A DNA stretch of 46,701 bases from an uncultured Pseudomonadota bacterium (GTDB lineage Bacteria; Pseudomonadota; Gammaproteobacteria; CAJXQU01), in contig CAJXQU010000017.1 in assembly GCA_913058255.1 (NCBI GenBank), positions 1 to 46,701 of the forward strand, given 5' to 3'. This document shows, in pieces, positions 10,460-46,701 of the stretch (its first letter is position 1; every line of letters starts with the position of its first letter). The translations under genes and the position numbers were made by a program. The notes under the pieces were generated by a model. The model ran no database searches. It was not told the DNA's origin and saw only the letters and a list, made by a program, of their open reading frames with translations.

Positions 10460-10496
10460 TACATTCTTAAACACATCATAACCATGGGGGGATTTG

Positions 10497-12731: not shown

Positions 12732-12792
12732 CAACCATGATTTTCTATTTAAATATCACACTAATACAATATTCCTCTAGCTGAGGAGAGAA

Positions 12793-15213: not shown

Positions 15214-16303
15214 ATATAGGAGTTATCTGTTGATTGCTGCCATCGTCGGTATTATCAGCTTGCTCCTCGTCCAGTTTGAACAATATGTTCAAACCAATGA
15301 CGTGGAGAAAGCTGACCAACATTTGAGTTCCGACTGGCAGCTCTACAAACGCATGTTTGTCACCGCAGATGGCCGTGTCATAGATACCGGAAATAACAAC
15401 AACTCCCATTCTGAGGGACAAGGTTGGGGAATGTTGTTTGCAGTGAAAAACAATGATCAAGCAGCATTCGATACGATCTGGCATTGGACAAAAGAGAATT
15501 TACAAATCCGTCAAGATCCTCTCTTTGCTTGGTGTTGGAATGCACATAATACTACCCGACCCATCTCTGATCTTAATAACGCAACTGATGGCGATCTATA
15601 CATTGCATGGGCACTAACAAGAGCCGGTCGAAAATGGGGAAAATCTGAATATACGAACACTGCTATCACTATCGTCAAACACACACGAGAGTTCATGACA
15701 CGTAGACATGCCGGAATGACGGTACTCTTACCCGGCAGTGAAGGTTTTGAAAAAGACGAGCACTTATTACTAAACTTGTCTTACTGGATATTCCCTGCCT
15801 TTAAAGAATTCGCACAAATTGACCCAAGCCCAACTTGGGATGAATTACATAACAGTGGTATCGATCTGATCAATAAAACACGATTTGGCCAATGGGAACT
15901 ACCGTCCGACTGGATCGTTCTCTCCCCTTCTGGCCAAGTAGAGTTGAGTGAGGACTTCCCTCCACGCTTTAGCTATGATGCGATCCGCGTGCCATTAGCG
16001 TTGTTTTGGGCGGATATCTCTGAACAAAAGTTACTAGAACCTTACAAAAATTTATCTGACCATTTTTCACGTTTGCAATCAACACCGGCATGGATCAATT
16101 TAGAAGATGATAGTGTCGCTCCATATCAAGCTTCAGAGGGTTTCACCGGTATTATAGCTCTCGCCAATGCCGCCCAAACTGATGGCGAGCTGAAAACGAC
16201 AGAACCTCATGTGACAGAAGATCAAGACTATTACAGCGCTTCGCTAGTCATGCTAACCCGTCAAGCAATCGAAGAAACGCAACACCATGAAACAAAAAAC
16301 TAA
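15185..16303 (+). CDS. bcsZ: Endo-1,4-beta-glucanase BcsZ (GH8)
   Basis: 372 aa. The GH8 endoglucanase of cellulose operons trims or releases glucan chains in the periplasm. The general acid is Glu77 in SHSEGQGWGM; other visible GH8 segments are NATDGDLYIAWAL (about 132-144) and RFSYDAIRVP, where Asp265 is the likely catalytic base. Instead of a simple cleavable signal, the N terminus has a hydrophobic segment at about 14-29 after Arg residues and may remain as an anchor. The start overlaps the end of bcsB by 29 bp, and the end overlaps bcsC by 17 bp, so translational coupling is likely. Confidence 0.94.
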   Translation: MDLISALRTRYRSYLLIAAIVGIISLLLVQFEQYVQTNDVEKADQHLSSDWQLYKRMFVTADGRVIDTGNNNNSHSEGQGWGMLFAVKNNDQAAFDTIWHWTKENLQIRQDPLFAWCWNAHNTTRPISDLNNATDGDLYIAWALTRAGRKWGKSEYTNTAITIVKHTREFMTRRHAGMTVLLPGSEGFEKDEHLLLNLSYWIFPAFKEFAQIDPSPTWDELHNSGIDLINKTRFGQWELPSDWIVLSPSGQVELSEDFPPRFSYDAIRVPLALFWADISEQKLLEPYKNLSDHFSRLQSTPAWINLEDDSVAPYQASEGFTGIIALANAAQTDGELKTTEPHVTEDQDYYSASLVMLTRQAIEETQHHETKN

Positions 16304-19300
16304 TCATCAATCCTCGAGCGCACTGCTATTAGTCAGTAGCCTCGTCCTTTTATCAATAACACAAAATGCTTTCGCTGATGAAGAAAAATCTCTACGCGAT
16401 TATGAAGCATCAAAATATGACAATATTAGCTATCCTGGGATAGAACCTATACCGCTCAAACAGGAAGGTAACAATATTGATGAACGCAGTTTATGGCGTC
16501 TTTTATCCGATAAAAAATATGATCAATTAAATAAAATGATCAAGCGGTTTGAAAACACTTATCCTGACTGGCAACCACCAGCTGATCTTATGGCGGCTAA
16601 GATCCATGGTGAAATTAACCAAGCAATTTCAGATAATAACCATGCATTAATACTGCAATACGAAAAAGACTATCCCGCATCATTTACCTGTACTGATATC
16701 GATCACATGTGGTCTGCCGGTAATGCACTAGATACTGTTGGTGAAAAACAGAAATTATTTTCTTATTACCAAAATATTATTGCAAACTGCCCTACTTCTG
16801 AACACCGGCTGATCACACTTCAACGTGCTTCAACACAGTTAACTTATCGTTCAACTCGTGCGCTAATCGAGCTTGAATCAGCGCATTCACACAGCAATTT
16901 TGAAGAAAGAAAACTCGATCAGTTTCGTTATGATTTTTTCAGTGGTTGGTTCACAGATGCCTGGGATAGAAAGCAATATAGAGAAGCAGAAGCTCCAGCT
17001 AAATATCTACAAGAGCCAATCATTGCTCGCAAAGATACAACAATGGCACGCTTGTTAGGTTGGTGGGAAATCCAACGAAAACAACCTCTCCTAGCGAAGA
17101 ATTGGTTTAGCCATGCACTGAAGTGGCAACCTGAAAAAGAAACCGCCTACGGCCTTGCACTAGCCTTACGCGACTCCCAAAATTTTGAACAATCAAAAGA
17201 AATTATCCTGCAATGGCAGGATCAAGAACCTCGTATGACAACCTTATTCGCTGCACCGACAGTGCAATTTACGGCACCAGCTGCTCCAAGAAAAACAGCC
17301 AGTCAGATCGCCTTAGAAAGAACCGTTAAAAAATACAATCGCAATGACTACTCAGGCAGCTTAAAAACCGCACAAGTCGCACTAAAGAGAGCTTCGACCT
17401 CAATTAAAAAAGATACCAAACGATCATTGCAAACCTTTGAAGCCTGGAGCCTCTATAATTTATCTGAGGCCGAACTCGCAGCAGATCGTTTTGAATTACT
17501 TTACCGGCAGCAAGCGGAAATCGATAGTGCACGTGGTTTACTACTAAGCTCAATCGAAATTCGAGAGTATGAAAAAGTACGAGCTCTTGGTGCTGAGGAT
17601 TGTGGCCCTTTATCATTTTTAAGTTCAACCCGAATTCCTTCGAACCAGCCGAATGTTCGAGACGAAATTTCTGACTTATATTATTTATTTTATAAGAGTT
17701 GGATAGGCGTAGCGTTAAAAGAAAAAAACTTTCGTTCCGTCGAATTAAAAATCATACGAATTGCTGACAGAATTATCCAACTTGAAGATGGAGAAATGGC
17801 GGGGGCTGCTGGTTGGGCTTACTTAGAAAAAGGTGATCTTGGCTCAGCATTATTCTGGTTTGAGCGTGCTTTAGCATGGAGTCCTTCCGCAGATAATGCC
17901 TATGGCTTAGCACTAGTAAAACAAAATCTAGGTAAACCTGAAGAAGCTGAGAAACTCACATCACAATGGCAAGAAAAGTCTAACGAAATTACTTTATTAC
18001 ACAGTGATCTGTTACTCGAACGCGCAGCTCATGAATACGAATTACAAAACTATACACAGAGCCTTACTCTGGCTGAGCAAAGTGCCGCACTTAAACCTAG
18101 CCTAGAAGCCGATAAATTGATCGCTTGGAATAGATATCAATTAGGCGATAGAGAAGCTGCTGCAAAAGACTTTGAAAAACTCTACAGAAACCATCCGGAT
18201 AAACAAAGTGCCGATGGCTTAGCAACAAGCCTCTTAGCACTAGATAAAGAACAACAACTAGAGGTGCTAGCCAATGAAATAGGCGGACCTCTATTAGATA
18301 ACCTTGCTGACCATCATGCACAACAATATTACTATAAAGATCAGTTTGTTCTAGCGGAGCACACCCGCGTTTCAACCTTACCGTTATTAAAAAACATAGA
18401 TACTGCTGCCATTTCTTTAACGCCGTATGCTCGTCACCGGAGTGGTTCAGAAGGCCTTGGACAACTGGATATTATCGGTATGGAATTAGCAGGGCGAGCA
18501 TTTATAAAAAGACATCATTTCCATGTAAGTCTTGATTTTTTTAATCTCGATAGTGGAGCTGTCGCTAACAATGCTCGATTAGGTAGCAATGCAGATCAAC
18601 TGGTAAATAGTTTTGTTTTCGAAACTACCGATAAAGAATCTTTGTTGATTGAACCAACTTTGAGTTACCGTTATGAGACTGATATATCACCACATTTTTC
18701 TATCGGGACAACACCATTGGGTGGTGAGTTGGGCGGTGTGCTTACGGGTGATCTTGGCATTGACTGGCAGCGAGGTCAGAATGGCGAAAATAAATATAAC
18801 CTGAAGCTTTTTAGAAAAAATAAACAAGAGTCAATCTTATCCACTTCGGGAATTGTTGATCCTGTTTCAGGCAACAAGTGGGGACGAGTCGTTGATACAG
18901 GAATTCAGTTCGATTTACACCAGCAAATTCTTAACTCATGGACTTTAACCTCAGGAGCTCTCTTCGGTAATCTAGATGGCCATGAGGTTGCCGATAATGA
19001 TCACTATGCACTTTGGGCTTCTCTGGGTTATAACATTGCTCGTAATGGTTTTAAATATCTAACAATAGGTCCAGCTTATCGCTTTGAGCATTTCGATGAA
19101 AACCGCAGTTTCTTTACCTATGGTCATGGTGGATATTTCAGCCCAGACGCCTTTCATAAACTGGGCGGTGAAATAAATTTTCAAACAGAAGAAGCCAAAC
19201 AATACATTATCAAAGGTCGAGCCTCACTAGGTTATCAATCTTCATCTGAAGACAATGCCTTCGCCTTCCCTTTAGTTCAGACTGGGCCGCTTTTGAATGG

Positions 19301-19505
19301 CGACGACAGCCATGGTGTAGCTTTCGACAGCCAACTCTCCGCTGTGTATCGAGTTAACCCTTGGATACAGGTTGGCGCTTTCTTAAACGTCACTCAATCA
19401 CCTGACTTTGACGATTTTGGTGGTGGGCTGATGCTTCGTATTAATGCCTTTGACAGACCTGCTGTCTTCAGTATGGATCTACCAGAAGCCGCTTGGAATG
19501 AATAA
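16287..19505 (+). CDS. bcsC: Cellulose export outer-membrane protein BcsC (TPR plus beta-barrel)
   Basis: 1072 aa. Signal peptide (ending TQNAFA-DEE), then about 650 residues of helical TPR-type repeats; WAYLEKGDLGSALFWFERALAWSPSADNAYGLALV is a clear unit. The C-terminal part from about 700 (ISLTPYARHRSGSEGLGQLDIIGMEL) is the BCSC_C outer-membrane barrel, ending FGGGLMLRIN ... MDLPEAAWNE. BcsC carries cellulose through peptidoglycan and the outer membrane. Length is close to E. coli BcsC (1157 aa). It is the last gene of the operon and convergent with hyi, with only 4 bp between stops, and no terminator is visible between them. Confidence 0.93.
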   Translation: MKQKTNHQSSSALLLVSSLVLLSITQNAFADEEKSLRDYEASKYDNISYPGIEPIPLKQEGNNIDERSLWRLLSDKKYDQLNKMIKRFENTYPDWQPPADLMAAKIHGEINQAISDNNHALILQYEKDYPASFTCTDIDHMWSAGNALDTVGEKQKLFSYYQNIIANCPTSEHRLITLQRASTQLTYRSTRALIELESAHSHSNFEERKLDQFRYDFFSGWFTDAWDRKQYREAEAPAKYLQEPIIARKDTTMARLLGWWEIQRKQPLLAKNWFSHALKWQPEKETAYGLALALRDSQNFEQSKEIILQWQDQEPRMTTLFAAPTVQFTAPAAPRKTASQIALERTVKKYNRNDYSGSLKTAQVALKRASTSIKKDTKRSLQTFEAWSLYNLSEAELAADRFELLYRQQAEIDSARGLLLSSIEIREYEKVRALGAEDCGPLSFLSSTRIPSNQPNVRDEISDLYYLFYKSWIGVALKEKNFRSVELKIIRIADRIIQLEDGEMAGAAGWAYLEKGDLGSALFWFERALAWSPSADNAYGLALVKQNLGKPEEAEKLTSQWQEKSNEITLLHSDLLLERAAHEYELQNYTQSLTLAEQSAALKPSLEADKLIAWNRYQLGDREAAAKDFEKLYRNHPDKQSADGLATSLLALDKEQQLEVLANEIGGPLLDNLADHHAQQYYYKDQFVLAEHTRVSTLPLLKNIDTAAISLTPYARHRSGSEGLGQLDIIGMELAGRAFIKRHHFHVSLDFFNLDSGAVANNARLGSNADQLVNSFVFETTDKESLLIEPTLSYRYETDISPHFSIGTTPLGGELGGVLTGDLGIDWQRGQNGENKYNLKLFRKNKQESILSTSGIVDPVSGNKWGRVVDTGIQFDLHQQILNSWTLTSGALFGNLDGHEVADNDHYALWASLGYNIARNGFKYLTIGPAYRFEHFDENRSFFTYGHGGYFSPDAFHKLGGEINFQTEEAKQYIIKGRASLGYQSSSEDNAFAFPLVQTGPLLNGDDSHGVAFDSQLSAVYRVNPWIQVGAFLNVTQSPDFDDFGGGLMLRINAFDRPAVFSMDLPEAAWNE

Positions 19506-28791: not shown

Positions 28792-29196
28792 CTAACTATC
28801 TTTTTTTGCTCTTGCAGCAGCCTTTCTAGCTTTTGCACGGGCACGTGATTTCTGTAGCTTAGCTCTCTCGGTGTCCTTCAACATCTTCTCGTAGTCTTTA
28901 TCAAACTTCTTGATAAATGCAGCAAGAGCCTTCTTATAAGTTGTCTGACGCCGAACCTTAGCTCGTTGAATCTGTTGCTTTGCTAGCTTCGCAGCTCTCA
29001 CTTCGCGTTGCTTTTCAGTAAGAGCAGCACCACGACCTGACACTTTTTTCTTAGCTACTGCTTTCTTCTTCGTAGCTGCTTTTTTAACTACGCCTTTCTT
29101 GGCCGCAGTTTTCTTAGCTACAACTTTCTTCTCAGCAACAACTTTCTTCTTAGCTGTAGATTTTTTCTTAGCCACTTTCTTTTTTGCCAACGCCAT
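28792..29196 (-). CDS. Histone H1-like Lys/Ala-rich DNA-binding protein
   Basis: 134 aa from the ATG at 29196, chosen over an upstream in-frame GTG at 29217 because AGAGGTG lies 5-6 bases before it. The first half is Lys/Ala/Val repeats (AKKKVAKKKSTAKKK, VAKKTAAKKGVVKKAATKKK), like the eukaryotic H1 tail and bacterial H1-like proteins. The second half is also basic but more complex, with a central YKKALAAFIKKFDKDYEKMLKD helix and an Arg/Ala-rich end (SRARAKARKAAARAKK). Likely binds DNA or RNA through charge. Low-complexity composition makes homology calls unreliable. A promoter and a terminator frame it as a single-gene unit. Confidence 0.8.
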   Translation of the reverse strand: MALAKKKVAKKKSTAKKKVVAEKKVVAKKTAAKKGVVKKAATKKKAVAKKKVSGRGAALTEKQREVRAAKLAKQQIQRAKVRRQTTYKKALAAFIKKFDKDYEKMLKDTERAKLQKSRARAKARKAAARAKKDS

Positions 29197-29242
29197 AAGG
29201 ACACCTCTTTCGATCACAAATTATTTAACAGGAAACGTGCGC

Positions 29243-30505: not shown

Positions 30506-31489
30506 TTACTCTTCAGGGCATAAGTTTTCTATTGATAAACCTTCTCTTTCTAAGTGTTTGCGTAAACATTTCAATGCCTCAAGCTGGATCTGTCGAACTC
30601 TCTCACGTGTAACACCAATCAGCTTTCCAACTTCCTCCAGCGTATACACATCATTCCCATGTAAACCAAAACGATATTCTACCACTGAGCGTTGTTTATT
30701 ATTTAACCTGTCCAGCCAAGTATCTAAATGAAATTGAATATCACCCGTCTGTAACATAATTTCTGGATCAGAATTATGGTTAGCAGGAATGGTATCCAGC
30801 AATGAACGATCAGATTCACCTGCCACCGGTACATTTACAGAAATAACACGTTCGTTCAAGCCCAACATCTTTTCAACATCTTCTACAGCACAGTCGAGAT
30901 GCTTCGCGACGTCTTCAGGGGTTGGTTCAGTATCCATCGTTTGAGAAAGTTTATAGTGAGCTCTTAAATAAGTATTAATCTCTTTTACAACATGGACAGG
31001 CAGGCGGATAGTTCGGGTTTGATTCATAATGCTACGTTCAATCGTTTGACGTATCCACCAAGTCGCGTAGGTAGAGAAACGAAAACCTCGTTCAGGATCA
31101 AACTTTTCAACCGCTCGGATCAAGCCCAAGTTTCCCTCTTCGATCAAATCTAAGAGTGCTAACCCACGGTTTAAATACCTTCGGGCAATTTTGACCACTA
31201 AACGAAGATTGCTTTCAATCATTCGGTTCTTATCGGCCATATCACCACGCTGGACACCACGAGCCAACTCCACTTCTTCCTCTGCAGTTAGTAAGGATGA
31301 AAAACCTATTTCTTTGAGATAAAGACGTGTCGGATCAAGATCGCTGCTACTTAGCTTTTCTGCGAGCTTGGCGGCTTTATCCGGAAGTTTATGGTTAACA
31401 CTCTTTACTCTAGAAGCGCTATCATTATCAGTAGGGCGATCTTGCCCCTCAGGTATTTCTACTTGGTGACCATCTTCACTATTATCCAT
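30506..31489 (-). CDS. rpoS: RNA polymerase sigma factor RpoS (sigma-S)
   Basis: About 327 aa from the ATG at 31489. A longer frame reaching a GTG at 31552 has no ribosome site and would add an unlikely hydrophobic leader, while AGG lies just before 31489. Region 1.2 [11 protein letters not shown], region 2 [55 protein letters not shown] split across 2.1-2.4, and region 4.2 [20 protein letters not shown] are all clear. It follows E. coli RpoS closely. Sigma-S directs the general stress and stationary-phase response. It is not preceded by nlpD here; the upstream neighbour is divergent pgi. Confidence 0.95.
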
Positions 31490-31714
31490 AAGCCTATTAT
31501 TCACCATTTTTAACGCCACGGCAAAAAAGTATTTAACTTCAATGGTATTCACGAAAAACTAAAAACTTTTCACTCACTTCAAGCCCCCTTTTTCCATATA
31601 CTCATACTCAATGAGAGCTCGACCAAACGTCTCTTTGGCATACACTTGTTATATGACAGCGCAACTGTCAAAATTGCCATTAAATCTTACCTAGTGTCTA
31701 GAATACATAATAAT

Positions 31715-33343
31715 ATGAAATTAACCCAACTACCCGCATGGAATGCACTTTCACGTCACTTTCAATCCTTTCATGCTCTCCAAATACAAGACTTATTTAC
31801 TCATGAGCAAGATCGTTTTGATCAATTTTCACTAAAAACCGATGATCTATTTCTCGATTACTCTAAAAATCGAGTTAATGCCGAAACGTTCGATCTTTTG
31901 CTCAAACTTGCCGAAGAAAGTGAAGTTGATCAATTCAAACAATTCATGTTCTCCGGTGAAAAAATCAATTTCACAGAACAACGGGCAGTGATGCATACCG
32001 CGTTAAGAAACCAAACTGATCGCCCTGTTTTTGTTGATAATGAAGATATTATGCCCGCTGTCAGAAAAGTCATGAAACAGGTAGAACTTTTTTCTGAAGA
32101 TGTTCGCAATAAAAAGTGGTTAGGTTACTCAGGGAAGCCGATCAAAAATATTATAAATATCGGCATCGGTGGATCTCATTTAGGTCCAGTTTTAGTCTCT
32201 GATGCTCTCGCTGAATATGGACAAAAGGATTTAAGTAGTTGGTATGTATCCTGTTCGGATATTAACCCTGTACTCAACCTGCTTGATCCAGAAACCAGCT
32301 TATTCATCATCGTCTCAAAATCATTTACGACTAAAGAGACTATCGCTAATGCAGAGCTTGCTAAAACTTGGCTTCTTGAAGCCGCTGGCGATCAAAAAGC
32401 CGTTTCTAAACATTTCGTTGCAGTTTCAGCGAACTCGGAAAAAGCACGTTCCTTTGGTATTAATCAAAATAATGTTTTTGAGTTTTGGGATTGGGTTGGT
32501 GGTCGTTACTCTCTGTGGAGTGCTGTTGGATTATCCACCATACTATTAATTGGCATGAAAAATTTTGAAGCCTTATTGGCTGGCGCATACCGCATGGATG
32601 AACATTTCCGTACAGCCCCTCTTAAACAAAATATGCCCACAATCCTGGCATTATTGGGTATTTGGTATAGTAATTTTTATGGTGCCCATAGCCATGCTGT
32701 TATCCCTTATGACGACCGTTTAAAACAGCTCCCTTTGCATTTACAGCAATTGGACATGGAGAGTAATGGTAAATCGGTAACACGTTCAGGAAAGACTACA
32801 GACTACACGACAGGCCCCATGATTTTTGGATCGCCTGGTACCGATTGTCAACACGCCTACTTTGAATCGATTCATCAAGGCACGCACCTCATTCCTGTTG
32901 ATTTTCTTATTGCATTAAACAGCACCACCAGCTCCAAAGATCGCGATGAAACTTTACTTGCAAATTGTTTCGCTCAGTCAGAAGCAATGATGCGAGGACA
33001 ATCTCTGCAAGAGATAAAAGCAGCCCTTAAGGCTTCTGGTCACAATGCTGGAGAGATTGAGCTACTGGCCCCACACAAGATCATAGCGGGTAATAAACCT
33101 AGTAATACATTACTTTATGACGAGTTAAATCCAGGCACTCTGGGTGCTCTTCTCGCACTCTATGAACATAAGGTGTTTGTCCAAGGTGTTATCTGGCAAA
33201 TCAACTCGTTTGATCAATGGGGAGTAGAGTTAGGTAAACAATTAGCGGATCAGATAAAGTTAGATCTACACCAAAAGAATCCTGGGCAGCATGATTGTTC
33301 TACGGAAGGGTTAATGAAAAAAGTTCGTTTAGGAAAGCTCTGA
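31715..33343 (+). CDS. pgi: Glucose-6-phosphate isomerase
   Basis: 542 aa from the ATG at 31715 (MKLTQLPAWNAL); the longer frame starting with TTG at 31646 is not credible. Interconverts glucose-6-phosphate and fructose-6-phosphate; in a ribulose-monophosphate methylotroph this joins the formaldehyde-fixation cycle to hexose pathways. Both PGI signatures are visible: DWVGGRYSLWSAVGLS and GNKPSNTLLYDELNPGTLGALLALYEH ... SFDQWGVELGKQLA. The catalytic Glu sits in MESNGKSV. The 3' end overlaps the convergent kinase gene by 15 bp. Confidence 0.95.
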   Translation: MKLTQLPAWNALSRHFQSFHALQIQDLFTHEQDRFDQFSLKTDDLFLDYSKNRVNAETFDLLLKLAEESEVDQFKQFMFSGEKINFTEQRAVMHTALRNQTDRPVFVDNEDIMPAVRKVMKQVELFSEDVRNKKWLGYSGKPIKNIINIGIGGSHLGPVLVSDALAEYGQKDLSSWYVSCSDINPVLNLLDPETSLFIIVSKSFTTKETIANAELAKTWLLEAAGDQKAVSKHFVAVSANSEKARSFGINQNNVFEFWDWVGGRYSLWSAVGLSTILLIGMKNFEALLAGAYRMDEHFRTAPLKQNMPTILALLGIWYSNFYGAHSHAVIPYDDRLKQLPLHLQQLDMESNGKSVTRSGKTTDYTTGPMIFGSPGTDCQHAYFESIHQGTHLIPVDFLIALNSTTSSKDRDETLLANCFAQSEAMMRGQSLQEIKAALKASGHNAGEIELLAPHKIIAGNKPSNTLLYDELNPGTLGALLALYEHKVFVQGVIWQINSFDQWGVELGKQLADQIKLDLHQKNPGQHDCSTEGLMKKVRLGKL

Positions 33344-34663
33344 AACAGACGTTTCATTATTTTTTTTGATAAGTCGTTTCGATACCATTTCAGCTAACCT
33401 TCTATACAGTACAGCCTGTGACAAAAATGATAACTGGCTAATTAATTCTTTCTTAATCTGTAGCACTTCCGTCTTGCCGTTGGACTTGATCGAAGTAGGA
33501 TGCGCCATACTCGAAAGGCAAGCGACTTCACCAAAACTATCTCCAACATTAATGTCATCTATCGATAGTTTTCCTGTAAAAAGAATGTATAAACCATCAT
33601 CCCGCTCACCTTGTTGCGTAATTAAATCACCATCGTTGAAATTGAGTCTTAAACAATCATTACAGATCAATCGTAAATCAGCCTCTTCAAGATCAGAAAA
33701 AATCCCTAATCTTTGAATCATCATTAACAGCTCTAAATTCTGTTCAGAAACCATAGGTAAAACTACATCACTCTTTGGCTCTACATTCTCTTCAACAAGT
33801 TTTTTTCCTTTTTGGGAGGGAAAGACGCGTCGAAGATACTTACTCATCTCTGCTGCAGATTTAAAACGCTTGGACGGATCTTTTTTCAAAGCATGCAAAA
33901 TATAGCTAGCGAGATTTTTTTGCATATTTGGCTTATAAACTAAGGGATCTGGTGGGTTTTCATTCACAACCTTGTAGATCAATCTTGAGAAACTTTCTGC
34001 CTCAAACGGATGCTTTCCTGTCAATAATTCGTACATGACAATGCCTAGCGAGTACAGATCTGTTTGTTGTGTGATGATATCTTCTTGCACCTGCTCAGGA
34101 GACATATACCGAGGTGAACCAACAAAACCTGTCGGCATCGTCATCTCAAAATTTTGCTGAGTGACAAAGGCGATACTAAAATCTGCGATCTTAATTTGCA
34201 TATCTTCGGTAACAAGAATGTTTGCAGGTTTAATATCTCGGTGGATCACACCTTCAACATGAGCATATTTCAGCCCCTCAGCACATTGAATAATTAAATC
34301 CAGCGCTTCCTCTGGTGAAAGTAGCTCTTCCTCAGAAATATAATCTTTTAATGTCCGCGCATGCTTAACTAGCTCCATTACAATGTAATGCCGACCTTCA
34401 TCAACACCACAGTCATACACTTCCATAATATTCGGATGGTGCAACAAACTACCGGTCTTGGCTTCACGAACAAAGAGTTCATTAAAACGACGTGCTTGTT
34501 GTTTATCTTTGATGTGTTCAGATAAAGATACTTTGATCGCTACAGGACGTTCTGCGATGGGATCATAACCTTCGTAAACAACCCCCATACTTCCTGTCGC
34601 AAGTTTTTCGATGACTTGATATTTTCCAAGTCTTTTAGGAATCTTATGAGTTGCAGTATTCAC
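33329..34663 (-). CDS. Ser/Thr protein kinase with degenerate cyclic-nucleotide-binding domain
   Basis: 444 aa, GTG start with AAAGG 6 bases upstream. A Hanks-type kinase (about 14-280): glycine loop LATGSMGVV (21-29), Lys44, HRDIKPAN (141-148), activation-segment GSPRYMSPEQ. The DFG motif is DFS (161-163), so the Gly of the Mg-binding loop is replaced. A cNMP-binding fold follows at about 320-435 (GERDDGLYILFTGKL ... GDSFGEVACLSS). Its phosphate-binding cassette lacks the Arg that contacts cyclic nucleotide (AHPTS in place of the usual R-x/S). No transmembrane segment. Last gene of the signalling operon, 51 bp after the histidine kinase. Soluble kinase reading an internal cue is inferred. 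Confidence 0.9.
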   Translation of the reverse strand: MNTATHKIPKRLGKYQVIEKLATGSMGVVYEGYDPIAERPVAIKVSLSEHIKDKQQARRFNELFVREAKTGSLLHHPNIMEVYDCGVDEGRHYIVMELVKHARTLKDYISEEELLSPEEALDLIIQCAEGLKYAHVEGVIHRDIKPANILVTEDMQIKIADFSIAFVTQQNFEMTMPTGFVGSPRYMSPEQVQEDIITQQTDLYSLGIVMYELLTGKHPFEAESFSRLIYKVVNENPPDPLVYKPNMQKNLASYILHALKKDPSKRFKSAAEMSKYLRRVFPSQKGKKLVEENVEPKSDVVLPMVSEQNLELLMMIQRLGIFSDLEEADLRLICNDCLRLNFNDGDLITQQGERDDGLYILFTGKLSIDDINVGDSFGEVACLSSMAHPTSIKSNGKTEVLQIKKELISQLSFLSQAVLYRRLAEMVSKRLIKKNNETSVSELS

Positions 34664-34714
34664 ATCTAACCTTTAAATGATAGTCATTAACTTGAATAAG
34701 TAGCGAAGTAGCAG

Positions 34715-36697
34715 CTAAATAAATTCTACCTTATCAGCGTGGAGTTCAACGTTCTCTTGATTATGGTTCTCAATTGTAAAGGAAAAAACACTACCTCGAT
34801 CAACTTCTGATTCAACCATGATCTTTCCACCCATTAATTCAACCAGTTCTTTGCTGATTCCAAGCCCTAAACCCGTCCCACCGAATTTACGAGTGATAGA
34901 AACATCTCCTTGTGCAAACGCATCAAATATAATATCAATCCGCTCTTCAGCTATGCCGATACCAGTATCTCTTACTTCAAATAAATACTGACCACTGTCA
35001 GTATTGAGCAAATGAACTTGAACATGTCCTTCATCTGTAAACTTAATTGCATTACCAATCAAATTCAACAAAACTTGCCTTAGCCTACCAGGATCAGTCA
35101 TCAGGTTATTGAGCGCATAGCCTTCAATAAAATATGCTAATGAGACTGACTTTTCACTAGCAGACTCTGACAGTAATTTAACGACGTCTTTTAAAATTTC
35201 TTCGGGATCGAAACTAATTAATTCCAGCTCGACTGATTTAGCTCCAAGCTTAGAAAAATCGAGCACACTATCAATCATCTTTAATAAAGACTGAGCAGAA
35301 CGTTTAGCGACATCAATGTACTCTGCCTGCTCATCTGTCGGTTCAGTGTGTTGTAAAAGGTTGAGAACACCCATCACACCATTCATCGGAGTTCGTAATT
35401 CATGACTCATATTGCCTAGAAAATCTGACTTTACTCTAGCAGCTTCAAGCGCTTTTTCAGTCGCTTTTTTAGCTTCAATTTCAGCTAATTTCCTACGATT
35501 AATATTTTGATTTATACCAATCATTCGAAGGGCTTTTCCTTGATGATCACGAGCAACAGCTCGACCTTGGTCATGAACCCACAACCACTCACCATCCGCT
35601 TTTAATAATCGATACTCAGAACAAAAGCTACTCGTCTTCCCGTCTATATGCTGTTGAACTTCCTCATTTACACCAATAAAATCTTCTGGATGAACCAACT
35701 GTCTCCAAGCTAATAGGTCATTCTCATAACTGTCCTTCTCATAGCCGAGCCTGAGCATCATTTGTTCCTGATTTACCGTACCCGTCTCAACAGATAAATC
35801 CCACATCCAAAGATCGCCACAATTCAGCGCCATTTGTAGGCTATCGTTGCTTTCTTGTAACGCCCTTTCAGACTCTTCAAGCTCGCTCAAATCACGGACA
35901 ATCCCAATAATTTGATTTTTATCACCTAGTTTTGCTGTCGTCAGGTTTAAATTGATCGGAAAGATTTCACCATCTCTGCGCATGGCTTCCATCATTCGCC
36001 AAGTGCCTGCCTGCATCAAGCCCCCATGCCGAGCAAACTTCCGAATAAAAGCTGGTACTTGTTCAGCATAAGCCGCTGAAAAAAACTGAGAAACATCTTC
36101 GTTCAAGATATCTTCTTGTGTACAAGCAAAAATTTCTTCTGCACGTGAGTTTAGTGACTGGATCAAACCTTCATCATTTATCACGACAACACCATCACCT
36201 GAGATATCAACGATCGCTTTAGTTCGACTTTCACTGTTAGAGAGGTCACGTAATAATTGAGATAACTCCAGTGTATTTTTACGCAGTTGCCCCTCACGCC
36301 TAACGGCTGAATCCACATTTGAAACCTGAATCAGACAATAAAAACCTTTATCTGAAGTAACTTTTAAAGGCTTAATCTCTATAGCTTGTTGTATTTTTTC
36401 TTTCTTAGTCTCACAAAAAAGTGGCAATGGGGAATGATGAATAGATTGTGCTAAAATGGCAGAACTACCACTATCAACTGCTTGTGATATCGCAGAAAAT
36501 AATCTTATATTTTCAATACTAGGGAATATTGACTTTATAGTTCTTCCTAAAACAAAGTCTTTGTCAAAACCACTATATCTTTCCATCCAATGATTCCACT
36601 GAACAACATGGCTATTTGAATCGAGAATAATTATCCCCACATTAACGACATTAAGTGCCGTTTCATCTATTTGTAAAAGGCGATCCTTCTGGCTCAT
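34715..36697 (-). CDS. Soluble sensor histidine kinase with three PAS domains
   Basis: 660 aa, no transmembrane helix. PAS domains at about 10-130, 155-275 (AIVDISGDGVVVINDEGLI, with PAC ending GIVRDLSELEESE) and 285-405 (PAS/PAC ending RMIGINQNINRRK). HisKA with the phosphoacceptor His432 in NMSHELRTP, then the ATPase domain: N-box NLIGNAIKF (545-553), DTGIGI (577-582) and GTGLGLGIS (607-615). No receiver is fused, so phosphate must pass to a separate protein. The two receivers just upstream in the operon are the natural targets. 3 bp from the CheC-like gene. Confidence 0.93.
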   Translation of the reverse strand: MSQKDRLLQIDETALNVVNVGIIILDSNSHVVQWNHWMERYSGFDKDFVLGRTIKSIFPSIENIRLFSAISQAVDSGSSAILAQSIHHSPLPLFCETKKEKIQQAIEIKPLKVTSDKGFYCLIQVSNVDSAVRREGQLRKNTLELSQLLRDLSNSESRTKAIVDISGDGVVVINDEGLIQSLNSRAEEIFACTQEDILNEDVSQFFSAAYAEQVPAFIRKFARHGGLMQAGTWRMMEAMRRDGEIFPINLNLTTAKLGDKNQIIGIVRDLSELEESERALQESNDSLQMALNCGDLWMWDLSVETGTVNQEQMMLRLGYEKDSYENDLLAWRQLVHPEDFIGVNEEVQQHIDGKTSSFCSEYRLLKADGEWLWVHDQGRAVARDHQGKALRMIGINQNINRRKLAEIEAKKATEKALEAARVKSDFLGNMSHELRTPMNGVMGVLNLLQHTEPTDEQAEYIDVAKRSAQSLLKMIDSVLDFSKLGAKSVELELISFDPEEILKDVVKLLSESASEKSVSLAYFIEGYALNNLMTDPGRLRQVLLNLIGNAIKFTDEGHVQVHLLNTDSGQYLFEVRDTGIGIAEERIDIIFDAFAQGDVSITRKFGGTGLGLGISKELVELMGGKIMVESEVDRGSVFSFTIENHNQENVELHADKVEFI

Positions 36698-36700
36698 GAA

Positions 36701-37330
36701 TTAAAGCTCTACTTCCATTCCAAAAGTATGGGCAACCGTATTTCTAAATACATCCATTTCTTCTAAATCCATCAGAAATGTTACATGCCCTTCAATGTCT
36801 TGCTCTTTTATACTGAATAAAATCATTGTTTTTAAAAAAAGAATTTTTTTATCGATCAATCTCTCAGTTCGACTTTTCAAAATGTCTCTTGCTGAACCTT
36901 GAGAAAACTCAGGCACTTCATTTGAAATTTCTTCATTAAGAATATCAGCGAGTGTCGAAAGACAGCCTGTCAAAATAATATTTCCAACTTCTGTTAAAGC
37001 CTCTTGTTGCATTTCAGTTAATACTTCAAGAGGAAGATCTTCATCAAGTAATAACTTAACCAGCTCTAAGCTATTCTCTTCTGGAAAAAATAAAAAAGCT
37101 TCTCCTTGAAACGTTCCCGCAAACTTCTCCCTTACCCCTGTTATTGAGTTATTTTGCACGCCACCTAAAACAGTAGCCGCTTCTTCACGATCCATAATCT
37201 CAACGACAGGAATCGATAACCTTATTTCTTGCCCAACCATTTGGCTTAATGATGCTGCTGCATGTCCAACACCAATATTTAGTATTTCTGAAAATGCATC
37301 TTTTTCCATTTCTGATAAGGGAAAAACCAT
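36701..37330 (-). CDS. cheC: CheC-like CheY-P phosphatase
   Basis: 209 aa, the size of two-active-site CheC. Both catalytic E-x-x-N centres are recognisable: FSEILNIGVGHAAASLSQM (Glu15/Asn18) and LTEVGNIILTGCLSTLADIL (Glu114/Asn117). CheC-family proteins dephosphorylate CheY-like receivers. It lies between a single-domain receiver and a histidine kinase, a few bases from each, so it probably resets one of the operon's receivers rather than the flagellar CheY. No CheD is in the window. Confidence 0.88.
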   Translation of the reverse strand: MVFPLSEMEKDAFSEILNIGVGHAAASLSQMVGQEIRLSIPVVEIMDREEAATVLGGVQNNSITGVREKFAGTFQGEAFLFFPEENSLELVKLLLDEDLPLEVLTEMQQEALTEVGNIILTGCLSTLADILNEEISNEVPEFSQGSARDILKSRTERLIDKKILFLKTMILFSIKEQDIEGHVTFLMDLEEMDVFRNTVAHTFGMEVEL

Positions 37331-37333
37331 GAC

Positions 37334-37693
37334 TTATCCCTCCTGCTCTAGAAAACTAAGAACCCGTTCTTCTGTTACCGGTTTGCCTATAAACCCAATT
37401 CCAGCCGCATCCGCTTTTTTACGTGTCGCTTCCTGAACATTAGCTGTCAACATCGACAACCTTGCATTTGGATATAGCTCTCTTAGCTTAGCTCCCAACG
37501 TAAGACCATCCATGCCCGGCATATTCATATCTAAAGTCGCAATATCTATATCCAGAGACTCACAGATTTTCAAAGCTGCATCTCCATCTTCCGCTTCATA
37601 GATTTCCCAATCTGGGTAGTTGTTTTTAATTATCGCAGTGATCATCATTCTTGATAAACGACTATCATCAACCACTAAAATTTTTTTAGACAT
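37334..37693 (-). CDS. Single-domain response regulator (CheY-like)
   Basis: 119 aa, a lone receiver domain: acidic pocket Asp9-Asp10 (LVVDDSRLSR), phosphoacceptor Asp55 (IATLDMNMPGMDG), switch Thr84 (SMLTANVQ) and Lys104 (IGKPVTEER). No output domain, so it works by protein contact or as a phosphorelay step. It sits 2 bp after the partner-switch regulator and 3 bp before the CheC-like phosphatase. Confidence 0.93.
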   Translation of the reverse strand: MSKKILVVDDSRLSRMMITAIIKNNYPDWEIYEAEDGDAALKICESLDIDIATLDMNMPGMDGLTLGAKLRELYPNARLSMLTANVQEATRKKADAAGIGFIGKPVTEERVLSFLEQEG

Positions 37694-37695
37694 GT

Positions 37696-39483
37696 TTATT
37701 CCTCTTTCCAGATATAATCGACTTCTACTGTCTTTCCGAAATCTTCATACTCAAGCCTTTCAGTTAATGACTTCACAAGCTTGATCCCTCTTCCATGCAG
37801 GTCAACTGTTTCTTCTGAGCCTATATCCATCAATGCCTGAGCTGATTCAACATCGAAACCATCTCCATCATGCGTAATTCGTAACGATAACTTTCCACCT
37901 TCCGTACATGGTGAGTGCTTAAGGTTAAAAGTAATTGAACCCGCAGATAGTCCATCTATGGCATTTTTACGTGCTTTATAATATTGTTCAAACCCATCTG
38001 GTGTCACTTTCAAACTTGAATCGAGATCGAGTAAGCCATGCTCCAGTGCATTCGAAAATAACTCGGTCATAATTAAGTAAAGTGACTTCTGATAATAATG
38101 TAGCCCCTGAATATCGACTACCATTTGAACCAATGATGGAATTATCTCTGCTTGCTTAATAACATCTTCTTTCACACAAAAATCTAAACTCCAGCTTGAT
38201 GCTGGCAGTAATGATTTAGTCACTATCTTGTCTTCTTTTAAACTGGTTTTTGTTGGATCACAATAAATTTCTAGAATAGATAGATCATCTCTTTGCGGCT
38301 GCCCCTGACAAAACTCCACAATCTTACTCATAATGCTTGGGAAAATATTCTTAGAAGAATTTTCACTCGCAATACATTCTTCTAAGCGTTCAGAACCAAA
38401 AAAATCACCTGATTTATTTTCCCCTTCTATTAAGCCATCAGAATATAAAATAAACTGATCGCCATGAGCCAATCGTATGGTTTCTGTCATAAGATCCAGT
38501 TCATGACTCTCTACGACACCTAACGGTAAATGTAATGAAGGGTAATTATGCGTAATGCCAGTTTGACTATTTTTAAAATAAATGTCTGGTAAACCACCAT
38601 TCCAAACCGATGCAATAGTGTGTTCAGCATCAAGTTCAACAAAACCTGCAGCAAGAAAACGTCCCGTTGGAAGGACCTCTCTTAATTTTCGGTTTATTTC
38701 TGAAATTATCTGTGCAACTGAAAAACCTTTTGCTGCCATCGTTTTAAACACATCAAAAACAACCAAGCCCCCAATTGCAGCTCCAAGCCCATGCCCAGTG
38801 AAGTCCCCTAACATATAGAGCTGACCACCATCAGGCTTGTGTGACACAATAATAATATCGCCATTCAGTTGTTCCATCGGCGATAAATAATAATTAATGT
38901 TGGTTACATCAAAGGCTTCACTTTTAGTTATTTTCGATAATATTCTTTCTGCAATATCGAGATCGCTGGCAGCTTCCTCTTCACGAAAGCTTAGTACTTC
39001 ATACTGAACCTGCTTCTCTCTATACAGTTCTTTCATTCTTAATAATGCTTCAATCTTAGCTTTAAGAATAACAGGACTGTAAGGTTTCGATAAAAAGTCA
39101 TCGCCTCCAGATTCGACACATTTAGCTAGCGCATCCTCATCAGTAATCGCCGTTAAAAACATAATAGGAGTATACGTATCTGGTGAATCTTTTTTTATTA
39201 ACTCTGCGGCTTCATAACCATCCATGACTGGCATCATGACATCCATCAGGATTAAGTCCGGTTGATATTTTTTAGACATTTCAACCGCTTTATGCCCATC
39301 ATCGGCAACAAGGACATTATAGCCATATTTAGTCAGCATTCCCTTGAGAACAATTCTGTTTACAGAGTCATCATCAACCAACATCAATGTTGAAATACTA
39401 TTTTTTGCTTCCGGTGCAACCTTATCTTCTTCAAGAGAAAGATTTATATTGCGAATCCCGTCATCACTTATTACTGACTCCAT
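37696..39483 (-). CDS. Partner-switch regulator: receiver - PP2C phosphatase - HATPase (HsbR/CrsR-like)
   Basis: 595 aa from the ATG at 39483 (AAGGA 7 bases upstream; a GTG one codon earlier is possible). Receiver with Asp37-39, phosphoacceptor Asp81 (LILMDVMMPVMDG) and Lys133. SpoIIE/PP2C domain at about 175-410 with metal-binding Asp in LNGD (209), GDFTGHG (Asp227), YSDGLIE (Asp349) and QRDDLSI. C-terminal RsbW-like ATPase at about 430-592 with N-box TELFSNALEHG (Asn478), DGDGFD and HGRGIKLV. Same order as HsbR of Pseudomonas and CrsR of Shewanella, whose last domain binds a sigma or anti-sigma factor and phosphorylates a STAS partner. The STAS partner is the adjacent gene. Confidence 0.93.
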   Translation of the reverse strand: MESVISDDGIRNINLSLEEDKVAPEAKNSISTLMLVDDDSVNRIVLKGMLTKYGYNVLVADDGHKAVEMSKKYQPDLILMDVMMPVMDGYEAAELIKKDSPDTYTPIMFLTAITDEDALAKCVESGGDDFLSKPYSPVILKAKIEALLRMKELYREKQVQYEVLSFREEEAASDLDIAERILSKITKSEAFDVTNINYYLSPMEQLNGDIIIVSHKPDGGQLYMLGDFTGHGLGAAIGGLVVFDVFKTMAAKGFSVAQIISEINRKLREVLPTGRFLAAGFVELDAEHTIASVWNGGLPDIYFKNSQTGITHNYPSLHLPLGVVESHELDLMTETIRLAHGDQFILYSDGLIEGENKSGDFFGSERLEECIASENSSKNIFPSIMSKIVEFCQGQPQRDDLSILEIYCDPTKTSLKEDKIVTKSLLPASSWSLDFCVKEDVIKQAEIIPSLVQMVVDIQGLHYYQKSLYLIMTELFSNALEHGLLDLDSSLKVTPDGFEQYYKARKNAIDGLSAGSITFNLKHSPCTEGGKLSLRITHDGDGFDVESAQALMDIGSEETVDLHGRGIKLVKSLTERLEYEDFGKTVEVDYIWKEE

Positions 39484-39512
39484 CACTAAATCCTTGTTGA
39501 TTATTATTGTTA

Positions 39513-39815
39513 TTATTCAACCATCATTAACTTATCGAAATTGGCAATTTTTAGAATTTCTTTGATATTGGTATCTGCATTTGAAATAGTAACAGCATCC
39601 TTACTACCTCCTGCGTGTTCGCGCAGTTGTAACAACATTCCTAATGCTGAACTATCCATATAGGAAGCATTTTTAAGATCGACAATATAGTTATAATCCG
39701 ATGGGTTATCTTTATAAGCATTTCGTAGGTCTTTATGAATATTAAAATCAAAACGTTCCGAAATTTGGATTCTCATCGTTTTACCATCACCGATAGATTG
39801 TGCTGAGACTGACAT
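39513..39815 (-). CDS. STAS-domain anti-anti-sigma factor (HsbA/CrsA-like)
   Basis: 100 aa, a single STAS domain. YIVDLKNASYMDSSALGMLLQLRE (43-66) holds the conserved phosphorylation site; Ser55 corresponds to Ser58 of SpoIIAA in its D-S-S-x-L-G motif. Such proteins, when unphosphorylated, pull a kinase/anti-sigma away from its target. The kinase and PP2C domains that would phosphorylate and dephosphorylate it are in the next protein, 29 bp downstream. Confidence 0.92.
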   Translation of the reverse strand: MSVSAQSIGDGKTMRIQISERFDFNIHKDLRNAYKDNPSDYNYIVDLKNASYMDSSALGMLLQLREHAGGSKDAVTISNADTNIKEILKIANFDKLMMVE

Positions 39816-39836
39816 AGGTATTGCTCCTTGTATAAC

Positions 39837-41039
39837 TTAAAATAATTCAATGTCACCTTCTGACATTGAGTCTTGGTTTGCAGGGCTCTCTGGAGCGTCT
39901 GCAGAATATTCAACGAATGTTTCTAAACTACTTCTAAGCGCTAAAACTGTTGCTGATGAGTCAGTTCCTGTTTGTGAAACTAATTCATTATTAAAGCTGC
40001 TAATAAATTTTTCTATTTCTTCCACCCGAAATTCAGCATGTTCAATAACCTGCCGTACAATATCTTCAAACTGTAAACTTCGGACAGCTACATCTGTTTT
40101 CTCACTGATGTTATCTGACAATAATGTTGCGTCTGCAACCGATACTTCTACAGCGGCTTCCATTTCCTGTAGATCTTTCATCATTCTCTCTACTCGACCT
40201 TTACCCGTAACAACGATAGTCATATCTTCAGATGCCATTTTACCAACAAGATCTCGAGTAGATCCTATGGCTAATTGTGCCGCTTCCATTCTTGCCCTAA
40301 TCTGTTCATTAAATTGATTTGATCGAACTGATAAGTTACGTACCTCATCAGCTACGACAGCAAAACCTCGACCAGCTTCACCCGCGCGCGCAGCCTCAAT
40401 TGCTGCATTTAAAGCTAATAAATTTGTTTGATCAGCAATTGACTTCACATCTGTAAGTAGTTGAAAGATGCCATCCATTTCATCTGCCATTTCATCAATT
40501 CCTGTAACGGTATCAATACTACCTTTGGAACTGTCCACCATAAATCCAACAAAATAATCCATCACCTCTGATGTTTCTGAAACGAACTTATTTAGTGTAA
40601 TTTGATCATTTTCAACTTCATCTGCATGTTCACTCATATTATTAAGTAAACTATGCATTAGTTGTCCCTGTGCCTGGCTATCATCATGAAGTCCATTGAA
40701 ACTCTTACTTAGATCCATCACCGACTGATGAACCAGCTGTCTTACCTGCTCAAACGATCCCTGCAAACTTGATAACTCTTCAATTAGCTGGTGGTTAATA
40801 TCCCCTATCACAGTCGCTAGCTCAGGATCGGCCATAGTCTCACTTATCAAATTGTAAGCACTACTTTCATCAACATGAGACATCTTACTAACCGTCTTCA
40901 AACTAGAAAAAATCCAGGCAAATACTGTTGTCACCAATACTAAAAAAGTAATGCTATCTGCTTTCAACCAGACCAGTGCTCCCATAGCAATTGAACTCAC
41001 TAATAAAGCAATATAGTTTCTCATCAAGAATGATTTCAT
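39837..41039 (-). CDS. Methyl-accepting chemotaxis-type protein without a periplasmic sensor
   Basis: 400 aa. Two N-terminal membrane helices (about 8-25 and 28-47) are joined by only a few residues, so there is no periplasmic ligand domain. The cytoplasmic signalling hairpin is clear: [38 protein letters not shown] (about 204-241). The C terminus ends MSEGDIELF, without a CheR/CheB docking pentapeptide. First gene of the operon, 21 bp before the STAS gene. No cheA, cheW, cheR or cheB is in the window. It may relay an internal or membrane cue to the partner switch instead of steering flagella; inferred from context. Confidence 0.9.
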
Positions 41040-41442
41040 GTTACAAATTAGCCCTTCAGGCCCCTTTGACTGTTTGTGGTCTAGTACTTATCGGTAATTC
41101 CTCTAGAACCTTTAACCTGAGCAAGGCATAGAAAAACGTTGTAGTAAAGTGAAATTAGACAGCTAAAAGAAGAAGTGATGCATAAGCTATGCCTTCATCA
41201 CTTAAAAAGAAGAGTATTTGGAAGGTGGATAGGAAAATCTATCGATAGTTCATAAAACAGGACTCCCTCCTTAAGGAAAGAAGACCTGTAAAATTGAGAG
41301 TGAGGACTAGCGTAGTAAACTCTAAGCTTGCTAGAAACCTCTGGCTAATTGATGGATAGTGACCTTGAGTTCAGAAATTATTCGGTGCTTCCTCCATCCA
41401 ATACCACCGGCCTCAGTAAAGAATAAAGACTTTATAAAAAAA
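41040..41442. other. Unassigned 400-bp intergenic region with small hairpins
   Basis: No convincing ORF, tRNA or known RNA motif was found. It must hold the promoter of the leftward signalling operon and any terminator for thrC. Visible structure: a stem at 41173-41203, a self-complementary CTATCGATAG near 41239, ACAGG/CCTGT flanking CCTTAAGG (about 41257-41289), and CTAGC/GCTAG arms near 41308-41333. The density of small stems raises the possibility of a short structured RNA. Confidence 0.35.
41173..41203 (-). terminator. Candidate terminator after thrC
   Basis: AAGTGATG (41173-41180) and CATCACTT (41196-41203) form an 8-bp stem that encloses a second small stem (GCATA/TATGC). Read leftward it is followed by CTTCTTTTAG, a weak pyrimidine-rich tail. 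It is about 240 bases beyond the thrC stop. Confidence 0.35.
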
Positions 41443-45942: not shown

Positions 45943-46657
45943 TTACAAACTCTTCTCTATTAGATTCAAAAAGTCACCCTCATTTTCAACTGTCAGCATG
46001 TCCTCAGCCGAGATGGTATAGCCGTGTTTTTCTATAATCGCTTCATAACGTGGAATTCTAGCGTAAAATAATCGGGGGAAAATCCAACGTACAAAATCAT
46101 CCGGTTCAATCAGAGCAACATACTCGAGTTCTTTCTCTTTCAAATAAAGCGCTAGCTGTTCGTCTAAAAATTCTTCACGATAATATAATGGTTTTGGATT
46201 CAACTCAGCACGACGGATCAACTCTTTTTCATTATCTTTCGATGCTTGGATATAGATAAATAACGTGTGCTCAGCCAGCAACTCGATAGTTTCATCATCG
46301 TCCAACTCACACAAGCTACCACCGGCATCATTTATGAAATGATCATAGCCATAGATATCATGCGCCTTCTCAATAAAGCCAGGCACATCATGCATAGTCC
46401 GTAGCTCCGCATTATGGTGCAGGGCTTGACGCTTCTTAAACTCCCTCAGGCTTAGCCCACCAAGCTCAGGGTTGCCCAACTTACCGAGGAAAGTAGAAAC
46501 CGGCTTTAAATTATCGACCGTAAGATTATTGTTGATCTGAATCGAGTCCGACCGCAATAAATCCCGTAGAAAAGGGATCTGCATCGCCTGAAACTTTATA
46601 TTATCAAGGATCGGCTCATCTAAATAGCGAGTACCAATACGATAATCACAGGAATAA
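45943..46657 (-). CDS. Uncharacterised protein, 5' end missing at contig edge
   Basis: About 237 residues of real sequence, from YSCDYRIG to the end EGDFLNLIEKSL; the apparent start Met and the following five residues come from adapter sequence, so the true N terminus is lost. Visible segments are GYDHFINDAGGSLCELDDDETIELLAEHTLFIYIQ (a hydrophobic strand after an acidic loop, reminiscent of P-loop kinase-like folds), and DDFVRWIFPRLFYARIPRYEAI. No Walker A is in the visible part. I do not assign a family. The 3-bp gap before metA suggests cotranscription. Confidence 0.6.
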
Positions 46658-46701
46658 CTGTCTCTTATACACATCTGACGCTGCCGACGATCTACTCTGT
46701 G
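46658..46701 (+). other. Illumina Nextera adapter read-through (not genomic)
   Basis: CTGTCTCTTATACACATCT (46658-46676) is the Nextera transposon end, GACGCTGCCGACGA (46677-46690) continues the read-2-side adapter, TCTACTCT (46691-46698) equals the reverse complement of the i5 index AGAGTAGA (S504), and GTG begins the P5 tail. Known from the published adapter design. Translated leftward it yields the well-known false start MCIRDS. Confidence 0.97.

Follow-up and report, generated by a model that had tools for sequence, protein, structure and literature searches.

Seven adjacent genes on one contig of an uncultured gammaproteobacterium combine a chemoreceptor-like protein, a partner switch, a lone receiver, a CheC phosphatase, a histidine kinase and a Hanks-type kinase. 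Do they form a new signalling system, or are they known parts in a new arrangement? An earlier note on this DNA took them for an undescribed integrated switch. The analysis revealed instead a composite of known parts, the first three genes of which match the che1 module of Shewanella (PMC9855816), and the operon as a whole is therefore ruled out as an undescribed system. We think it probable that a CrsA-CrsR-type partner switch of F7-chemosensory origin has here acquired a second, soluble input.

Results

Layout of the operon

The window, a 46,701-nucleotide stretch of DNA, is contig 17 of a 33-contig, 2.78-Mb gammaproteobacterial assembly. Its list of open reading frames (ORFs) contains seven adjacent ORFs in one orientation on the minus strand (33329-41039). 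An mcpA-like gene (39837..41039, 400 aa; Pfam MCPsignal, 5.8e-27) is followed by a crsA-like STAS gene (39513..39815, 100 aa, phosphosite Ser55; STAS_2) and by a crsR-like gene (37696..39486, 596 aa) for a regulator with receiver (D82), PP2C phosphatase and HATPase kinase/anti-sigma domains (Response_reg, SpoIIE and HATPase). The remaining four genes encode a stand-alone CheY-like receiver (37334..37693, 119 aa; Response_reg), a CheC receiver phosphatase with both ExxN sites intact (36701..37330, 209 aa; CheC/CheX, matched in two stretches), a soluble triple-PAS histidine kinase (34715..36697, 660 aa; three PAS, HisKA and HATPase) and a Hanks-type Ser/Thr kinase with a C-terminal cNMP-fold domain (33329..34663, 444 aa; Pkinase and cNMP_binding). 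Starting from the mcpA-like gene, the intergenic gaps are 21, 26-29, 2, 3, 3 and 51 bp, the second being 26 bp if crsR starts at the GTG at 39486 and 29 bp if it starts at the ATG three bases in, at 39483. The ORFs and Pfam matches thus confirm the strand, spacing and domains given in the earlier note, and the gaps make a single transcript for the seven genes plausible.

Upstream of the mcpA-like gene lies thrC, not che genes; the 403-bp intergenic region 5' of the operon (41040..41442, minus strand) presumably contains the promoter. No RNA element was matched by Rfam in the operon region, this interval included. An ORF for rpoS, the presumed target of the switch (30506..31552, minus strand), lies 1.8 kb past the Hanks kinase gene with pgi in between, and the operon-bearing contig of a second species of the genus (G001) likewise carries rpoS.

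A CrsA-CrsR-type switch core

The STAS protein carries the motif MDSSALG, in which the first Ser (S55) is the SpoIIAA-type phosphosite; this Ser is kept in 59 of 60 aligned homologues. The receiver Asp, the PP2C Asp residues and the HATPase motifs of CrsR are intact in the window and, among 67 sequences, nearly everywhere else. With its catalytic residues and its adjoining STAS partner with a phosphorylatable Ser, the REC-PP2C-HATPase protein is a regulator of the CrsR/HsbR type, and the partner switch that the earlier note had recognized stands. In G001, the CrsR kinase domain lacks the glycines of the G1 and G2 motifs as well as the N-box Asn, and is 44% identical to that of the window, compared with 64-66% for the receiver and phosphatase domains, so ATP-dependent phosphorylation of STAS by CrsR may fail in some species.

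CrsR homologues (E<=1e-70) were found in 75 of 369 sampled genomes of the class. Flanking sequences were fetched for most CrsR-positive genomes and annotated using stop-to-stop ORFs, to catch small overlapped genes (STAS, CheC), together with profiles built from the window proteins and from the window genome's own F7 che genes. A STAS gene lies immediately upstream of CrsR at 56 of the 66 distinct loci, and at 33 of the 66 a close McpA homologue, containing the motif described below, lies upstream of STAS-CrsR; CheC is absent from 65/66. The McpA-CrsA-CrsR module, which controls sigma-S in Shewanella, is recurrent across Gammaproteobacteria. The che1 (F7) operon of Shewanella oneidensis contains the same McpA-type MCP, STAS and REC-PP2C-HATPase genes as the window; McpA, CrsA, CrsR and the F7 che genes share one transcript, and RpoS is under the control of CrsR/CrsA (PMC9855816). 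The joining of MCP, STAS and CrsR is therefore neither new nor unusual: F7 (che1-type) clusters are known to end in this way. In contrast to che1, the module in the window is detached from che genes and continues into REC, CheC, PAS histidine kinase and Hanks kinase genes.

The HsbA-HsbR pair of Pseudomonas aeruginosa has the same REC-PP2C-kinase regulator and STAS partner and is linked to RpoS, which HsbR/HsbA control, and to FliA, HsbA acting on FlgM/FliA as well; the pathway as described is fed by HptB and hybrid kinases and includes neither CheC nor a Hanks kinase (PMC6482189). CrsR and HsbR bind different phospho-forms of their STAS partners (PMC6482189), so the switch in the window may run in either direction.

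Conservation of the gene order and probable separation from an F7 cluster

All seven genes occur in the same order in G001 (~56-79% identity), and a 3.8-kb contig of a third species spans the end of CrsR, REC, CheC, the histidine kinase and the start of the Hanks kinase. The gene-neighbourhood check proposed in the earlier note thus extends the order beyond one contig, in full in one further species and in part in another, and this conservation across the genus rules out a chance neighbourhood. The taxonomic order is sampled by three genomes of one genus, all three of which carry this CheC; two of the three are metagenome-assembled Gammaproteobacteria. In the data searched, the combination of CrsR, CheC and Hanks kinase is found in this genus only, in all three species (one partly assembled), and a scan of the genome collection with CheC matched only the genus and two distant Chloroflexi. 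These distributions cover the sampled genomes and the pattern scan; for CheC-CrsR adjacency, they cover the class sample and the genus.

For 23 McpA loci the sequence reached far enough upstream to show the neighbours: cheR/cheD/cheB precede McpA at 15 of them and not at the other eight, four of which have a histidine kinase there instead. In most lineages the switch core adjoins a chemosensory array, and in others it adjoins histidine kinases. G001 very probably resembles Shewanella che1 in also having an F7 che cluster upstream of the module. Its contig C57 starts within cheB and runs on through mcpA-STAS-crsR-REC-CheC-HK-STK-pgi, while contig C15 reads cheY-cheA-cheW-MCP-ParA-two ORFs-cheR-cheD-cheB. 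The ends of C15 and C57 overlap exactly over 127 bp inside cheB and in one reading frame, as is typical between neighbouring de Bruijn contigs; the two are therefore very probably contiguous, the join being an assembly-graph overlap and not a single contig. The window genome has two CheA loci (both on contig 7), eight MCP matches and four SpoIIE-phosphatase matches. Its orthologous F7 cluster, on contig C7, ends at cheB without the mcpA-STAS-crsR module; next to it come an S4-domain gene and flagellar genes. Since the operon is very probably continuous with the F7 cluster in G001 and the F7 cluster of the window genome lies elsewhere, the window operon is probably the severed 3' half of what was a longer operon of chemosensory and stress genes, the split having occurred in this species.

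A receiver-CheC-PAS triple with variable output

Both active sites of CheC, E15xxN18 and E114xxN117, are invariant in the three species, and together with the match to the CheC profile they identify it as a CheC phosphatase. Relatives of this CheC (E<=1e-6) occur in 68 of the 369 class genomes. Around the 20 strongest CheC places fetched, the usual order is REC, CheC and a PAS protein, and a stand-alone receiver adjoins CheC in most of the CheC loci examined. Three kinds of PAS protein occur in this position: diguanylate cyclases, GGDEF-EAL proteins and histidine kinases. PAS1 of the window kinase (residues ~8-152) is common to all seven partners tested (E 7e-33 to 3e-20), GGDEF, EAL and histidine kinase proteins among them; the later PAS domains and the kinase core, on the other hand, are matched equally well or better by unrelated kinases. 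With only PAS1 common to the partners, the receiver, CheC and PAS1 represent a constant unit on which the output is swapped. This part of the operon is a separate, widespread triple with variable output (HK, GGDEF or GGDEF-EAL).

REC-CheC/CheX-PAS triples of Gamma- and Alphaproteobacteria share the order receiver, CheC, PAS1 with the window; on plasmids of Alphaproteobacteria, the orders CheX-PAS-REC and REC-CheX-PAS-HK occur. These triples usually stand alone, with a GGDEF, GGDEF-EAL or short histidine kinase output, whereas that of the window is joined to a CrsR module and to a triple-PAS kinase. A genome of an unrelated family (G326) has the order cheR-cheD-cheB-McpA-STAS-REC-CheC-PAS-GGDEF-EAL, and in two of its relatives STAS is followed by REC-CheC-PAS, with CrsR located on a different contig; the two modules have therefore become coupled, or stayed so, more than once.

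The Hanks kinase (Pkinase 2.2e-53, cNMP_binding 3.2e-8) has the VAIK Lys and the HRD motif, and DFG reads DFS in the three species. By inspection, the cNMP domain segments FGEVACLSSMAHPTS and FGEISFLSEETSLTA lack the phosphate-binding-cassette Arg after FGE, and the domain is, judging by these residues, degenerate. In G001, the Hanks kinase could replace the kinase activity of CrsR.

Proposed signal flow and its alternatives

In the reading that we favour, the PP2C and HATPase domains of CrsR would determine whether Ser55 of the STAS protein is phosphorylated, and on the state of Ser55 would depend whether a sigma factor, by homology most likely RpoS, is retained by the anti-sigma domain or set free. 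The kinase/phosphatase balance would in turn be set by phosphorylation of the CrsR receiver, as we infer from HsbR and CrsR, with the unlinked F7 CheA, the presumably co-transcribed PAS histidine kinase or both providing the input. The lone receiver and CheC would act as a coupled sink/reset unit tied to PAS1 of the histidine kinase. The Hanks kinase may add another phosphorylation, possibly of the STAS protein, and McpA may contribute a CheZ-like receiver phosphatase or docking at the chemoreceptor array. On this reading the locus represents a re-plumbing of a stress-sigma switch, its core unchanged, by the gain of a Hanks kinase and of a two-component unit that CheC resets.

It is unlikely, in our view, that the transcript carries two separate units, with McpA-CrsA-CrsR hearing the unlinked F7 CheA only and REC-CheC-PAS-HK, perhaps with the Hanks kinase, working as an independent two-component unit. 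The many CrsR loci without CheC, and the triples found away from CrsR, are consistent with such independence, but the order is kept in full in two species and through its second half in a third, and the association recurs in G326 and its relatives. The earlier note had the PAS kinase phosphorylating both receivers, a step that is not secured, since the PAS protein of many homologous triples is a diguanylate cyclase and not a kinase, and the receiver must there be fed from elsewhere. The phosphorylated lone receiver, reset by CheC, might instead bind PAS1 and control the histidine kinase rather than serve as its substrate. That PAS1 is shared while the output varies, that GGDEF-type triples contain no kinase, and that Shewanella CheY3 contacts diguanylate cyclases (PMC11395469) all argue for this reversed flow; histidine kinase versions are common too, however, including in Alphaproteobacteria, and direct transfer from kinase to receiver is the simplest reading there. 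We consider the reversal somewhat unlikely.

A CheZ-like signature in McpA

McpA has two hydrophobic, N-terminal transmembrane stretches and an MCP signalling hairpin; the signalling tip of a canonical chemoreceptor is present and a ligand-binding domain is absent. We aligned it with 32 homologues, most of them encoded directly upstream of STAS-CrsR; across the 33 sequences, pairwise identity averages 32%. Few positions beyond the signalling tip are invariant, but these include D326 and Q330 (33/33) within LQFEDxxxQ (LQFEDIVRQ in the window; 40050..40076, minus strand), S113-F114, and a G..LF (G395, L399, F400) in the C-terminal 12-residue peptide (39840..39875, minus strand), which by eye resembles receiver-docking peptides. 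S113-F114 lies approximately opposite D326/Q330 on the hairpin, at about equal distance from the tip. The motif is located exactly +113 residues from the tip ALNA in 41 of 49 MCP ORFs, some of which are one gene in two overlapping loci; the other eight, without the motif, are other MCP types.

The active-site residues of E. coli CheZ are D143/Q147, and the active site of the window genome's own CheZ reads FQD[LI]TGQ. Like McpA, CheZ carries its motif (FxD[IL]xxQ) on a long helix; McpA differs in being an MCP signalling protein without profile-level similarity to CheZ. Profile-profile alignment (hhalign) placed D326/Q330 on the CheZ D/Q with a score of 30.4 (P 4.6e-4), compared with 13.9 +/- 2.9 (maximum 28.0) for heptad-preserving column shuffles, of which 0/150 reached 30.4. 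The signal disappeared once the motif was masked, and the similarity is confined to nine columns. The Pfam CheZ profile gave no match to the McpA C-terminus in the motif register, ruling out true CheZ family membership at the profile level. Taken together, a significant hhalign score and no Pfam match indicate a local CheZ-like motif. An AlphaFold model of McpA (mean pLDDT 42.8) was left out of the evidence. A literature search, outside which most subscription papers lay, returned no report of a CheZ-type motif in MCPs, and the Shewanella McpA paper does not mention CheZ (PMC9855816). At the sequence level, what is new here is the DxxxQ in a CheZ-like context, together with the conserved C-terminal peptide, in CrsR-linked MCPs.

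The DxxxQ signature suggests receiver phosphatase activity, and McpA may thus be more than the mere further input it was first taken for. It is somewhat probable that McpA is an ordinary chemoreceptor in which DxxxQ serves structure or localisation rather than catalysis, a reading compatible with other explanations as well; the nine-column limit of the likeness, the failure of the Pfam CheZ profile to recognize the C-terminus and the presence of Shewanella McpA in CheA3 complexes (PMC9855816) agree with it. Retention of D and Q in every sequence despite 32% mean identity, their fixed distance from the tip and the S113-F114 opposite them are harder to reconcile with an ordinary receptor, as is the increased, CheA3-dependent swimming upon McpA overproduction in Shewanella (PMC9855816), an effect that a CheY-P phosphatase might give. 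We therefore also entertain, tentatively and leaning against it, that McpA of F7/CrsA-CrsR loci across Gammaproteobacteria is a chemoreceptor-phosphatase hybrid, in which the conserved C-terminal ELF peptide would dock a receiver and D326/Q330 dephosphorylate it, so that the sigma-S switch would respond to the state of the array. The signature would then offer a simple role for McpA-type receptors, whose presence in the Shewanella stress operon is puzzling, and in the window such a McpA would work beside CheC, so that the operon would encode two receiver phosphatases of different kinds.

The kinase domain of CrsR, the receiver-PP2C-HATPase regulator, lacks the N-box Asn and the G1 and G2 glycines in the sister species G001 (locus L062, G001:C57, 2026-3816). 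Among the 67 aligned CrsR sequences, which include one truncated sequence (L122), a comparable loss of kinase motifs was seen in only one other, L129.

Locus L218 (G035:C168:28211-28543) encodes an MCP-like protein of ~394 aa with a degenerate tip, which carries FQFQDRTSQ, ends in DVLFF and matches Pfam CheZ at 3.4e-6, below the cut-off. This protein is possibly another MCP-CheZ hybrid. The F7 MCP of the window's genus (L141 7662-10418, G000:C7) appears by eye to begin with a globin-type domain, whereas Aer2 has PAS domains.

Between pgi and rpoS, G001 carries additional genes that are not in the window, encoding an aldehyde:ferredoxin-oxidoreductase-like protein, an FAD oxidoreductase and a response regulator (L143, G001:C57:12000-24000, and the end of L062).

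Control by c-di-GMP and stress may have an output in a cellulose synthesis operon elsewhere in the window (bcsA, bcsB, bcsZ and bcsC, named by eye, 10494-19505). Its bcsA product has, by eye, a PilZ-like part at the C-terminus. A Lys/Ala-rich repeat protein similar to histone H1-like proteins is encoded at 28792-29217; its G001 counterpart is repeat-expanded (L143 5178-5657). The contig terminates in a Nextera transposase adapter (CTGTCTCTTATACACATCTGACGCTGCCGACGA..., 46659-46701), and the start of the ORF at 45943-46674 (N-terminus MCIRDS...) is an artefact, because it lies inside this adapter.
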